A stretch of 64,000 nucleotides of DNA from Roseobacter sinensis (GTDB taxonomy: Bacteria; Pseudomonadota; Alphaproteobacteria; Rhodobacterales; Rhodobacteraceae), in contig NZ_JALIEB010000009.1 in the NCBI RefSeq assembly GCF_025755255.1, positions 124,001-188,000 on the forward strand. The letters are read 5' to 3'. Position numbers and translations under genes: made by a program. The notes beneath the pieces are model-generated. The model was not told the origin of the DNA. It saw only the letters and a list, made by a program, of their open reading frames with translations, and made no database searches. Shown in pieces: positions 28,510 to 54,259 of the stretch (the stretch's first letter is position 1; each line of letters begins with the position of its first letter).

Positions 28510-29337
28510 ATGAAAACGTTAGAGGCAGAAGTTGCGGAAAACCGCGTGCGTCGCGAAGCCAATCGGAAAGCGGCCGAGCAGAGTGCGAGTCGCGGCAAGT
28601 CACACATGCGGCGGTGGGCAAAATGGGCGATCGAACCGCTCAATGCTGCCATGCATGCTCTTCGGTTGGCGCGGCTGAAGGCTGAACGTCGGAAGCGTAT
28701 TGCAGAATATCTGGAACGGGACGGCTTCAAGGGGCTTCAGGTCGGCTGCGGTCCGCATATCAATTCAGGTTGGCACAACAGCGACATTTTCATGCCCCGT
28801 CCGTTCTTCCGGGGTTTCACAAAGCAGGAAAGTGAACTCGACCTGCATGTCGACATTACGGAGCCGCTTCCTTATCCGGACGACTCCCTTGATGCGATCT
28901 ACGCTGAAGAAGTATTGGAGCACGTCCCCAATCCAGCCGGCCGGGCATTCCTTTCGGAAGCGAAGCGCGTGCTGCGGCCCGGCGGCGTGCTGAGGCTGAC
29001 CACGCCGGATGCCTTGGGTATCTGCAAAGTCTTTGCTGGCGGCGTGCCCGATGTCGATGTCGAGCACTGGGAGCCTTTCTGGCTAAATCCGTACTGGAGC
29101 CGGGAGTATTGGCTGAACGGGCAGTTCTATCTCTACGGACACCAACACCTCTGGACCTTCGAAGAGTTGTCTGACGCTCTTGGTCAATCCGGTTTCAAAA
29201 AAGTCGAACGCGTGGAGCCCATGCAGACCAATTCCGAAATGCCACAGCTTGCCAACCTGGAGCGCCACGCGGTCTCCAATCCGGAAATCCTGCGCATCGA
29301 CGCGCATGTTCGTCAGATTGTCGAAGCGACCGCCTAG
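28510..29337 (+). CDS. Class I SAM-dependent methyltransferase (type 11)
   Basis: A 275-residue protein. Residues 1-70 are a basic helical N-terminal extension. The methyltransferase fold follows: motif I is degenerate, LQVGCGPHINSGWHNSDIF; LDAIYAEEVLEHVPNPAGRAFLSEAKRVLRPGGVLRLTTPD carries the post-I acidic region and motifs II-III. The degenerate LQVGCGP-type motif I is common in methyltransferases of surface polysaccharide or natural product loci. The ATG lacks a strong ribosome site; an in-frame TTG at 28489 is the alternative. It sits isolated in a lower-GC segment beside tRNA-Tyr, suggesting lateral acquisition. Confidence 0.8.
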   Translation: MKTLEAEVAENRVRREANRKAAEQSASRGKSHMRRWAKWAIEPLNAAMHALRLARLKAERRKRIAEYLERDGFKGLQVGCGPHINSGWHNSDIFMPRPFFRGFTKQESELDLHVDITEPLPYPDDSLDAIYAEEVLEHVPNPAGRAFLSEAKRVLRPGGVLRLTTPDALGICKVFAGGVPDVDVEHWEPFWLNPYWSREYWLNGQFYLYGHQHLWTFEELSDALGQSGFKKVERVEPMQTNSEMPQLANLERHAVSNPEILRIDAHVRQIVEATA

Positions 29338-52523: not shown

Positions 52524-52560
52524 GCAAAAAGGCGGTGCCCGGGAGGAGGGCACCGCCTTC
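52524..52560 (-). ncRNA. ccsR4: Fourth CCUCCUCCC hairpin RNA (CcsR4-like) with terminator
   Basis: A perfect 12-bp stem (plus-strand 52529-52540 with 52548-52559) exposes a 7-base loop TCCTCCC, part of the shared CCTCCTCCC motif. On the minus strand it runs into a T5 tract, so the last RNA ends at an intrinsic terminator that carries the anti-Shine-Dalgarno motif in its loop. This is the distal member of a tandem of four. Confidence 0.75.
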
Positions 52561-52567
52561 AAAATTC

Positions 52568-52600
52568 GCTGCATTGGTCAGGGAGGAGGAAGACCGCAGC
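52568..52600 (-). ncRNA. ccsR3: Third CCUCCUCCC hairpin RNA (CcsR3-like)
   Basis: On the minus strand GCTGC-GGTC pairs with GACC-aat-GCAGC (9 bp with a 3-base bulge), and the loop contains CCTCCTCCC (plus-strand 52581-52589). An ACCAGCC/GGCTGGT dyad at 52612-52626 lies between this hairpin and the second one. Confidence 0.72.
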
Positions 52601-52638
52601 AACGTGTCACAACCAGCCAGGCTGGTCTCAAATAGGGA

Positions 52639-52671
52639 CAGCGACATCCGGGAGGAGGATGAATGCCGCTG
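52639..52671 (-). ncRNA. ccsR2: Second CCUCCUCCC hairpin RNA (CcsR2-like)
   Basis: On the minus strand CAGCGGCAT pairs with ATGTCGCTG (9 bp, one G-U), and the loop contains CCTCCTCCC (plus-strand 52650-52658). The sequence is distinct from its neighbours outside the loop motif. Confidence 0.75.
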
Positions 52672-52678
52672 CCTGGTC

Positions 52679-52712
52679 ACAGACGCCCTAGGGAGGAGGA
52701 AAGAACGCCTGT
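52679..52712 (-). ncRNA. ccsR1: First CCUCCUCCC hairpin RNA (CcsR1-like)
   Basis: On the minus strand ACAGGCG pairs with CGTCTGT (7 bp, one G-U), and the loop contains CCTCCTCCC (plus-strand 52691-52699). It starts 14 bases after the stop codon of the DUF1127 gene, so it is expected to be cut from the common transcript. In R. sphaeroides four such RNAs follow the DUF1127 gene ccaF1 in the same order. Confidence 0.72.
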
Positions 52713-52725
52713 TTCGGACGCAGAG

Positions 52726-52962
52726 TTATGCCTCTGCGAATTTCTCTGCCGCTTCGAGGGCGAGGCCGCGGATCATCGACCGGCTCAGGCCAAGATCGTT
52801 CAGTTCGCGGTCGCTCAGTGCAGCCAGTTCGGTGAGTGTGATGCGGTACACGCGGTATTTGGCGTAGCGCCGTGCCGCGGTCTCGAACATATGTGCGGTG
52901 GCCGCCAGCGCCCGTTCGATCAGGCTGCCGGATGCGGAATGTGTCTGTGTGTAGTAGGCCAT
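52726..52962 (-). CDS. ccaF1: DUF1127 small protein (CcaF1-like), leader gene of the CcsR-type RNAs
   Basis: A 78-residue protein. Residues about 35-70 form the DUF1127 domain (YAKYRVYRITLTELAALSDRELNDLGLSRSMIRGLALEA), preceded by a Ser/Ala-rich N-terminus (MAYYTQTHSASGSLIERALAATAHMFETAARR). DUF1127 proteins are small, arginine-rich, and can bind RNA; the R. sphaeroides homologue is translated from the CcsR precursor and influences processing of those RNAs. The ribosome site is weak (GAGG 10 bases upstream). The gene is followed without a gap by four anti-Shine-Dalgarno hairpins. Confidence 0.85.
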   Translation of the reverse strand: MAYYTQTHSASGSLIERALAATAHMFETAARRYAKYRVYRITLTELAALSDRELNDLGLSRSMIRGLALEAAEKFAEA

Positions 52963-53004
52963 TGTCTGCGCCTCATCTCGTCTTGTCTTGTTGCTTGTGG
53001 TCTT

Positions 53005-53032
53005 TATGTAGGCAAATGCTGCGTGTGCACAA
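53005..53032 (-). promoter_or_regulatory. Putative stress promoter of the DUF1127-CcsR locus
   Basis: On the minus strand TTGTGC (53032-53027) and TACATA (53010-53005) are 16 bases apart, 42 bases before the ATG. In R. sphaeroides this locus is driven by RpoHI/RpoHII; the match to those consensus sequences is partial, so assignment to RpoH is an inference. A TGCTGC/GCAGCA dyad (53048-53062) lies upstream. Confidence 0.4.
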
Positions 53033-53185
53033 TAGCGCCTGTCACAATGCTGCTATGCAGCAATTGCATGGGCGCCCTAGCGCAAATTTATGCGTGTTGC
53101 TATAGGGTTAAGCAGTTGGGCACCCGAGATACCGTTAGCGGAAACAGGCGCTTATCAAAGTGGCGCGGATGAGGAGAAATTGAGC

Positions 53186-54259
53186 ATGTCTGTGACAAAA
53201 GCCGATGTTGAGGCCGCGCTCGCCCGCGTCGCCCTGCCGGACGGAAAGAGCCTGGTCGCGCATGACTTGATTCGCGCGCTGACAGTGGAAGGTGACACCG
53301 TGCGCTTCGTGATCGAGGCGCCGAGCCCGGAGGTCGCGCGCCAGATGGGCCCCCTGCGCGATGCAGCGGAGCAGGCGGTGAAACAGCTGCCCGGGGTGGG
53401 GGCCGCGCATGTGGCGCTGACCGCCCATGGTCCGGCAGAGAAGAAACCCGAGCCACCCAGCCTCAAGATCGGGGGGCATCCGAAGCCGCAGACCGGGCCG
53501 ACGCGGCCCGCAGGCGTCCAACGCATTCTCGCGATCGGCTCCGGCAAGGGTGGGGTGGGCAAATCAACGGTGTCGTCGAACCTCGCCGTGGCGCTGGCCC
53601 GTGCGGGCCGCAAGGTGGGGCTGCTGGATGCCGATATATATGGCCCCTCCCAGCCGCGCATGATGGGTGTCAACAAGCGCCCCGCCTCGCCCGACGGCAA
53701 GACCATCATCCCTCTGCACGCCCATGGGGTTACGCTCATGTCCATCGGCTTCATGCTGGAAGAGGGCAAGGCCGTGGTCTGGCGCGGCCCGATGCTGATG
53801 GGCGCGCTGCAGCAGATGCTGGGGCAGGTCGAGTGGGGTGCGCTTGACGTTCTGCTTGTCGATCTGCCGCCGGGCACGGGCGACGTGCAGCTGACGCTGT
53901 GCACGAAATCCGAACTCACGGGGGCGATCGTCGTCTCCACGCCGCAGGATGTGGCGCTGATCGACGCGCGCAAGGCGCTTGATATGTTCGCAACCCTCAG
54001 CACGCCCGTGCTCGGGCTCATCGAGAATATGTCAATGTTCGTCTGCCCGGATTGCGGTTCCGAACACCAGATCTTCGGGCAGGGCGGGGTCGCCGCGGAA
54101 GCTGAGAGGCTGGGCGTGCCGCTCCTCGGCGCCCTGCCCATCGATCTCGAGACGCGCCTCGCGGGCGACGGGGGCACACCGGTCGCGGCGGGGGACGGGC
54201 CAATGGCGGATGCTTATGCGCGCATCGCAGAAAGGCTGATCAAAGACGGTATGGCCTAG
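53186..54259 (+). CDS. mrp: Mrp/NBP35-family Fe-S cluster carrier ATPase
   Basis: A 357-residue P-loop protein that carries and delivers Fe-S clusters. Residues 1-80 form a MIP18/DUF59-like domain ([69 protein letters not shown]). The deviant Walker A motif GKGGVGKST lies at residues 120-128, switch I at [12 protein letters not shown], and the C-terminal CPDCG ([15 protein letters not shown]) provides the bridging cysteines. The ATG at 53186 has AGGAG upstream; the frame is open farther back without homology. It is divergent from the DUF1127 locus, and its stop overlaps the stop of the convergent membrane protein gene. Confidence 0.94.

Follow-up and report, generated by a model that had tools for sequence, protein, structure and literature searches.

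In Rhodobacter (Cereibacter) sphaeroides, the DUF1127 gene ccaF1 is followed by the small RNAs (sRNAs) CcsR1-4, the "cuckoo RNAs", and the label CIN1 for loci of this kind is taken from PMC10253847. One R. sphaeroides transcript, RS0680a, has two stem-loops with the motif in each (PMC3927594). In the Rhizobiales, the LysR-type transcriptional regulator VtlR/LsrB activates three DUF1127 genes and AbcR2 (PMC12595884), and LsrB also activates NfeR1, an sRNA with three hairpins presenting CCUCCUCCC. Here we describe a CIN1 locus in Roseobacter sinensis, in a stretch of 64,000 nucleotides (nt) of contig NZ_JALIEB010000009.1 (positions 124,001 to 188,000) that we call the window and in which all coordinates below are counted. 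An earlier note, made from the letters of the window alone, had placed a ccaF1-CcsR1-4-type locus at 52524..53032. The locus itself is an expected one, and the interest lies in a conserved two-part operator upstream of its DUF1127 gene, most of which falls outside these coordinates; as far as could be seen, this operator is undescribed, and we report it as a new part of the locus. On balance, we think it probable that the window holds a CIN1 operon with an RpoH-type promoter and two two-loop sRNAs that is, in addition, under LsrB/VtlR-type control at the two boxes of the operator.

The locus shares with ccaF1-CcsR1-4 the DUF1127 gene, the paired CCUCCUCCC hairpins downstream of it, the 3' terminator, altered stems, and a probable RpoH-type promoter. 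It differs in the number of units (two rather than four), in the length of the protein (78 rather than 71 amino acids), and in scoring under the Rfam threshold for CcsR1, and the R. sphaeroides passages cited here make no mention of an LsrB/VtlR-like operator. With NfeR1 (alpha-r14, RF02344) of Sinorhizobium meliloti, which is LsrB-activated, it has in common a loop motif held in hairpins with diverged stems; NfeR1, however, has three hairpins and its own RpoD promoter, whereas the hairpins in the window follow DUF1127 and the conserved promoter block lies 5' of that gene. The likeness to the VtlR/LsrB regulon of the Rhizobiales (DUF1127 genes, AbcR1/2, NfeR1, and VrsA) extends to the sequence of the site, the kind of target (DUF1127 genes and sRNAs with anti-Shine-Dalgarno loops), and an LsrB-type regulator. 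The differences are that the family is not one of the Rhizobiales, that the regulator lacks the redox cysteines of Agrobacterium LsrB and is not encoded beside trxB in this genome, and that the candidate site has A for T. Among the matches listed in the open-licence PMC literature, none tied LsrB/VtlR to CcsR or to DUF1127 genes of the Rhodobacteraceae; PMC12501420 cites LsrB in a reference only.

A conserved two-part operator precedes the DUF1127 gene

Alignment of the window with four Roseobacter relatives revealed a near-invariant block 5' of DUF1127 (Table 1). Across the family, the operator takes the form of TGCATRGCAGCATTG, a gap of 11-12 nt, and then ATTGTGCANNYGCAGCA. We compared 52 rows of DUF1127 genes with arrays, whose upstream regions included two from Nitratireductor. 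Of 51 upstream regions (one flank was too short; both Nitratireductor regions are among the 51), 34 contained the sequence TGCATRGCWGCATTG with at most one mismatch, compared with none of 469 background windows of the same loci. Nine of the remaining upstream regions had two mismatches and eight had three or more, and two background windows reached two mismatches. TTGTGCANNNGCAG was exact in 45 of the 52 upstream regions, the window included.

A sample of 198 Rhodobacteraceae genomes was searched for the exact composite GCATTG-N6-14-TTGTGCA-N3-GCAGCA, which occurred at 103 sites in 100 genomes (twice in three of them); its reversed control gave no match. Every one of the 30 composite sites whose surroundings were fetched stood before either the loop motif CCTCCTCCC (28 sites) or a DUF1127 frame recognized by a regular expression (21 sites). 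Although the pattern permitted more, none of the 59 distinct composites had a gap other than 11 or 12 nt between the boxes, which puts the box centers about 31 base pairs (bp), or three helical turns, apart. Tetramers of LysR-type regulators often bind sites so spaced. The R. sinensis genome has four DUF1127 genes, and in their fetched loci of about 3.1 kilobases (kb) only the one in the window has box 1 with no or one mismatch, the others showing three or four.

The proximal box overlaps the -35 element of a putative core promoter whose likeness to the alphaproteobacterial RpoH consensus is apparent. At rsp_0557 of R. sphaeroides, the RpoHI/HII promoter has TTG at -35 and TAT at -12 (PMC10673084); the window has TAC where rsp_0557 has TAT. 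The sequence is consistent with an RpoH-type core promoter. The locus could also be a CIN1 operon driven by RpoHI/RpoHII only, with the boxes forming an extended stress promoter or serving the divergent gene for an Mrp-type ATPase. A figure legend in PMC10253847 gives the R. sphaeroides operon an RpoHI/RpoHII promoter, and ATTG-N17-CCTACAT resembles such promoters. A divergent Mrp gene, recognized by the P-loop motif [GS][GS]KGGVGKS, was present in 40 of the 52 rows, including those of G111 and G104, two genomes with high CcsR1 scores. Box 1, however, resembles a known regulator site, and its distance 5' of box 2 exceeds the usual contacts of a sigma factor. The Mrp motif was not found in 12 rows, two of them from Nitratireductor; this speaks only weakly against the Mrp variant, as the upstream stretch is shorter than 850 nt in five of the 12. 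We consider it distinctly unlikely that the RpoH factors are the only input.

Table 1. Positions of the features of the R. sinensis locus in the window
Feature	Position	Strand	Basis
Operator box 1, TTGCTGCATAGCAGCATTGT, distal; VtlR/LsrB-like, also fits the PhaR palindrome CTGCNNNGCAG	53044..53063	-	near-invariant in four Roseobacter relatives
Operator box 2, ATTGTGCACACGCAGCAT, proximal; overlaps the -35 element	53016..53033	-	TTGTGCANNNGCAG conservation
RpoH-type core promoter (probable), ATTG-N17-CCTACAT	53006..53033	-	sequence; transcription start probably near 53000
DUF1127 protein, CcaF1-like, 78 amino acids	52726..52962	-	PF06568, 52.2 bits (cut-off 23.3)
CcsR-type unit 1, two hairpins, motifs at 52691-52699 and 52650-52658	52633..52715	-	Rfam CcsR1 (RF02791), 35.2 bits, model 1-83 of 83; folds
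Small hairpin without motif between the units, beside CCCUAUUUGAG	52611..52627	-	minimum-energy fold
CcsR-type unit 2, two hairpins, motifs at 52581-52589 and 52541-52549	52526..52603	-	Rfam CcsR1, 23.8 bits, model 1-83 of 83
Last hairpin of unit 2 as intrinsic terminator, 13 bp, 7-nt loop, then TTTTT	52526..52559	-	fold, sequence
Mrp/NUBPL-type P-loop ATPase, divergent, sharing the intergenic region with DUF1127	53186..54259	+	PF10609, 324.5 bits on 53180-54256; start codon by eye

Likeness of box 1 to the VtlR/LsrB and PhaR sites

The VtlR-binding motif has been published as CAATGCAGCCATGCA (PMC12595884), and the VtlR site has been summarized as GCAT-N3-TG-N3-T (PMC7486931). The reverse complement of the motif differs from the family box 1 at one of 15 positions where the box has its G variant and at two where it has its A variant. 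The window carries the A variant; its site is identical to the reported motif at 13 of 15 positions and misses the strict summary by one position (A for T).

The same box also admits another reader, the polyhydroxybutyrate-sensing PhaR (AniA), in which case the CIN1 locus would have its RNAs tied to carbon storage and not to an LsrB signal. The PhaR site reported in R. sphaeroides is CTGCNNNGCAG. In S. meliloti, PhaR acts as a repressor of the sRNA gene mmgR and recognizes palindromes that occur in pairs and flank the -35 element; PhaR sites also lie around the -35 elements of phaP promoters in that species (PMC12542648). Box 1 of the window contains this site, reading exactly CTGC-ATA-GCAG, and an exact CTGCN3GCAG was found in 32 of 51 upstream regions, compared with 4 of 587 background windows.

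The two models were compared in rows anchored at box 2. An exact box 2 was present in 45 of the 52 rows, nine of which were dropped for differing at one of four alignment positions, so that 36 remained; the alignment used only positions common to the VtlR and PhaR models, and these four (three per model) are fixed by the choice of rows and hence are not evidence. GCAT-N3-nG-N3-T was present in 35 of the 36 rows and CTGCN3GCAG in only 22; in the other 14 the palindrome is incomplete, the base most often changed being the A of GCAG (present in 69%). The positions of the VtlR site that lie outside the PhaR palindrome were nevertheless conserved (A8, 1.00; T9, 0.97; A16, 0.94; T18, 1.00; G19, 0.94). 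The three middle bases are A, T (G in 3%), and a purine, whereas the S. meliloti PhaR motif has a symmetric RNY there (PMC12542648). Moreover, box 2 does not match CTGCN3GCAG, and L073, the locus of the high-scoring CcsR1 genome G111, has GCGG. Around the other three TGCTGCN3GCAGCA sites of the R. sinensis genome, no phasin gene was seen among the frames inspected; phaP and phaR themselves were not located.

These data favor VtlR/LsrB over PhaR as the predicted reader of the operator. PhaR had been our first reading of the upstream palindrome; it was downgraded, though not dropped, on the strength of the VtlR motif and the comparison anchored at box 2, and we now hold it to be rather unlikely. 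The second VtlR-like site of the genome, at 28641-28655 of the window, was taken as a chance occurrence, as it lies inside a methyltransferase-like frame (identified by eye) and has no second box.

A candidate LsrB/VtlR ortholog in R. sinensis and its family

An LsrB-like gene adjoined trxB in 14 of 30 fetched loci of the class, and in the other 16, some of which were cut short, no LsrB-like frame was recognized by regular expression; an earlier, stricter expression had found such a gene in 1 of 30 trxB loci. As a route to the R. sinensis regulator, the trxB neighborhood failed: the trxB gene of this genome (contig C27) is flanked by an Lrp-type gene and a cytochrome P450 gene, as read by eye from the frames. 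A profile was built from eight of the trxB-adjacent LsrB-like proteins and applied with a threshold of E<=1e-60. It gave one strong match in 191 of the 198 family genomes, and so in nearly every genome; the match in R. sinensis, at 108348-109211 of contig C69, had an E value of 5e-107 and its next paralog one of 4e-51. The best PDB match of the R. sinensis protein was 9hh1_A (2.4e-70, with the next entry at 2.4e-29). This chain has cysteines at positions 144, 236, 244, and 273, and we take it to be the Agrobacterium LsrB because these are the cysteines published for that protein.

A tree was constructed from 30 family matches, the R. sinensis protein, the 14 trxB-neighbor proteins of the class, 9hh1_A, and two R. 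sinensis paralogs as the outgroup. It joined the 31 family proteins with 9hh1_A and the 14 trxB neighbors (support 0.964), apart from the two paralogs. In the DNA-binding domain, the R. sinensis protein was identical to 9hh1_A at 47 of 62 residues, compared with 24 and 30 for the paralogs. It is therefore likely, judging from these sequence comparisons, that the R. sinensis genome encodes an LsrB/VtlR ortholog.

Several observations weigh against LsrB/VtlR-type control of the locus. The R. sinensis gene is not beside trxB as it is in the Rhizobiales, and the overall identity of its product to 9hh1_A is 39.6%. The family proteins form a clade of their own (0.995) in a tree whose outgroup holds only two proteins and no OxyR, and the family regulator may be an old paralog of LsrB. 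The four redox cysteines of Agrobacterium LsrB were absent in all 31 family proteins, which makes sensing by them unlikely. LsrB has been called a LysR-type regulator unique to the Rhizobiales (PMC11975290, 2025; few species compared), a claim with which the matches in 191 of 198 genomes, R. sinensis included, disagree. Seven of the 198 genomes had no match at 1e-60. Among the genomes without such a match is G114 (locus L030), whose completeness is rated at 100% and in which the array and box 2 are present, as is box 1 with one mismatch; its missing match reflects either an assembly gap or a true exception. Two others, G028 and G196 (86% and 64% complete), have the exact composite. LsrB is so widespread that its co-occurrence with the operator says little. 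At the site itself, the T of the VtlR motif is mostly replaced by A (T in 11% of the 36 anchored rows), and 98 of the 198 genomes have no exact composite. Finally, 9 of the 30 fetched composite sites lacked a recognized DUF1127 frame though CCTCCTCCC follows (the regular expression may miss members), and L210 and L214 have the composite and a DUF1127 frame but no exact CCTCCTCCC within 1.5 kb, so that either their RNAs were lost or the loops changed.

The array consists of two pairs of hairpins

The earlier note described a DUF1127 gene on the minus strand followed by four hairpins presenting CCUCCUCCC, the last of which doubles as an intrinsic terminator. The PF06568 match, the four exact CCTCCTCCC positions (Table 1), the folds, and the TTTTT after the last hairpin confirmed this description. 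The first CCTCCTCCC is separated from the DUF1127 stop codon by 27 nt. The 211-nt region folds with -86.9 kcal/mol, compared with -62.7 +/- 4.7 kcal/mol for 200 shuffles, none of which was as good (z, -5.1). Three of the hairpins leave the whole nine-base motif unpaired, and the fourth has two of its motif bases in the stem. The 9-mer occurs 43 times in the R. sinensis genome (21 forward and 22 reverse), a count close to that of its reversed-letter control (24 and 21, or 45), so the motif alone is not enriched. The paired-motif pattern, on the other hand, matched twice in this genome, both times at the window locus, compared with no match of its reversed control.

The spacings between the motifs, 41, 69, and 40 nt, indicate two pairs rather than four equal units. 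In the covariance-model search that the earlier note had proposed, CcsR1 matched both units over its full length, but the scores of 35.2 and 23.8 bits remained under the gathering cut-off of 65.3 bits. The alpha-r14/NfeR1 model likewise scored 41.4 and 39.0 bits, under its cut-off of 58.8. The 83 positions of the CcsR1 model make up two hairpins, and RS0680a, which we take to be CcsR1, has two as well. In many of the fetched family loci, motifs are about 38-42 nt apart within pairs and pairs 60-90 nt apart. Three genomes scored above 100 bits with CcsR1: G051, the highest, has seven pairs, and G111 and G104 have four each, as expected of R. sphaeroides CcsR1-4; these three may be close relatives of that species.

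The equation of the four loops with CcsR1-4 in the earlier note is contradicted by the two-hairpin Rfam model, by the two stem-loops of RS0680a (PMC3927594), and by the four pairs of G111 and G104. From the model, the recurrent pair spacing, and RS0680a, the unit is most likely a hairpin pair, and the most likely number of CcsR-type RNAs encoded in the window is two instead of four; by a strict reading of CcsR1-4 as four sRNAs, the window stands apart with its two pairs. The number of loops does equal the number in the name CcsR1-4, and some family arrays, such as L015, are evenly spaced and show no clear pairs. Set against the same three lines of evidence, these two points leave four separate one-loop sRNAs a very improbable arrangement. 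Between the two units, the CCCUAUUUGAG beside the linker hairpin is a possible entry site for RNase E. A linker hairpin of 5-7 bp was found at the same place in L039-L042, with a different stem sequence in L041 and L042; the structure may thus be kept, perhaps as a processing signal.

Distribution and history of the array in the family

The paired-motif pattern was found in 142 of the 198 family genomes, and RF02791 matched 163 of them at E<=0.001, with only 9 reaching the Rfam threshold; the Rfam CcsR1 model looks too narrow for the family, its threshold omitting most members. At named DUF1127 loci, two or more motifs within 250 nt were present in 21 of 33. A crude proxy for a terminator, a TTTT no more than 36 nt past the final exact motif, was found in 28 of the 52 rows.

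Covariation was assessed in 511 distinct hairpin segments from the fetched loci, each chosen for having another motif no more than 130 nt away. In 87.5% of them, the motif was flanked by at least 6 bp of stem, compared with a mean of 29.7% (maximum, 34.1%) when the 3' arms were re-dealt 50 times, and 205 different stem tops were seen; the count pools related and partly overlapping loci and does not represent independent events. The loops were fixed by the choice of segments, so their conservation is not a result, while the covariation of the stems is. This strong stem covariation and the synteny with the divergent Mrp gene support the proposal of the earlier note that the locus is of the ccaF1-CcsR (CIN1) type with altered stems and kept loops. 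The body of the locus is an ordinary CIN1 member, and we take it to be the same ancestral locus.

About 145 nt present in the relatives are missing from the window; the gap runs from within the first hairpin of unit 1 as far as the first one of unit 2. The alignment shows three pairs in L039 (uncultured Roseobacter), one motif of which has drifted, and in L040 (Roseobacter cerasinus); the middle segment is also present, with drifted motifs, in L041 and L042. A single hybrid hairpin, which still pairs, remains at the deletion in the window. In the simplest reading, one unit was probably lost by deletion between homologous hairpins. Collapse during assembly is unlikely, since the merged hairpins are not identical in the relatives.

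Two other arrays were recorded. L015 (G165, contig C1, about 334949-336120) has 26 CCTCCTCCC motifs at steps of 42-51 nt in a repeating three-hairpin pattern and was apparently expanded in tandem. L069, from Nitratireductor sp. XY-223, is a CIN1-like locus outside the Rhodobacteraceae, with two DUF1127 genes within 6 kb and three CCTCCTCCC motifs after each. In the window, the downstream neighbor of the array, past the terminator and in the same direction, is a gene for a Hint-domain protein with RTX-type repeats (PF13403, PF00353; 51103-52368, minus strand).

Proposed mechanism and its meaning

By analogy with R. sphaeroides, a single transcript from the RpoH-type promoter, induced by stress, would carry the frame of the small arginine-rich DUF1127 protein and a 3' untranslated region. 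RNase E would cut the latter into two stable sRNAs with two CCUCCUCCC loops each, and the DUF1127 protein may aid their maturation. CCUCCUCCC resembles the anti-Shine-Dalgarno sequence of 16S RNA. If NfeR1 is a guide, these redundant loops would pair with strong Shine-Dalgarno sequences at the translation starts of selected mRNAs and thereby keep them from being translated. The sequence GGGAGGAGG-N2-10-ATG occurs at 8 sites in the R. sinensis genome, compared with 1 in the control. One of the 8 is the antisense of the array, three look like chance, and four precede plausible genes (rhamnose mutarotase, DctQ, a response regulator, and IclR); Shine-Dalgarno-like sequences being common, these sites are leads only. 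A further control of transcription would come from a LysR-type regulator in the LsrB/VtlR group, predicted from the operator and the ortholog to bind the two boxes, the proximal one over the -35 element, and to activate the operon. Its signal would be something other than oxidation of the known cysteines.

A wider proposal concerns the Rhodobacteraceae as a whole. An LsrB/VtlR-type regulator without the known redox cysteines would there have the DUF1127-CcsR operon as its main, and perhaps its sole, direct target, and CcsR would stand under two inputs, the stress sigma factor RpoH and the LsrB signal. On that view, the circuit linking this regulator to DUF1127 genes and anti-Shine-Dalgarno sRNAs would be alphaproteobacterial and ancient, not rhizobial. 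We hold this proposal tentatively, as finely balanced and tilting slightly to the side of doubt.

If the operator is read correctly, it would contradict the view of LsrB as unique to the Rhizobiales, and it would show that LsrB can control such RNAs independently of the known thiol switch. CcsR would gain a second input that is open to testing, and the operator would join the CcaF1/CcsR system of R. sphaeroides, known for its RpoHI/RpoHII control, with the VtlR/LsrB system of the Rhizobiales, known for its DUF1127 genes and anti-Shine-Dalgarno sRNAs.

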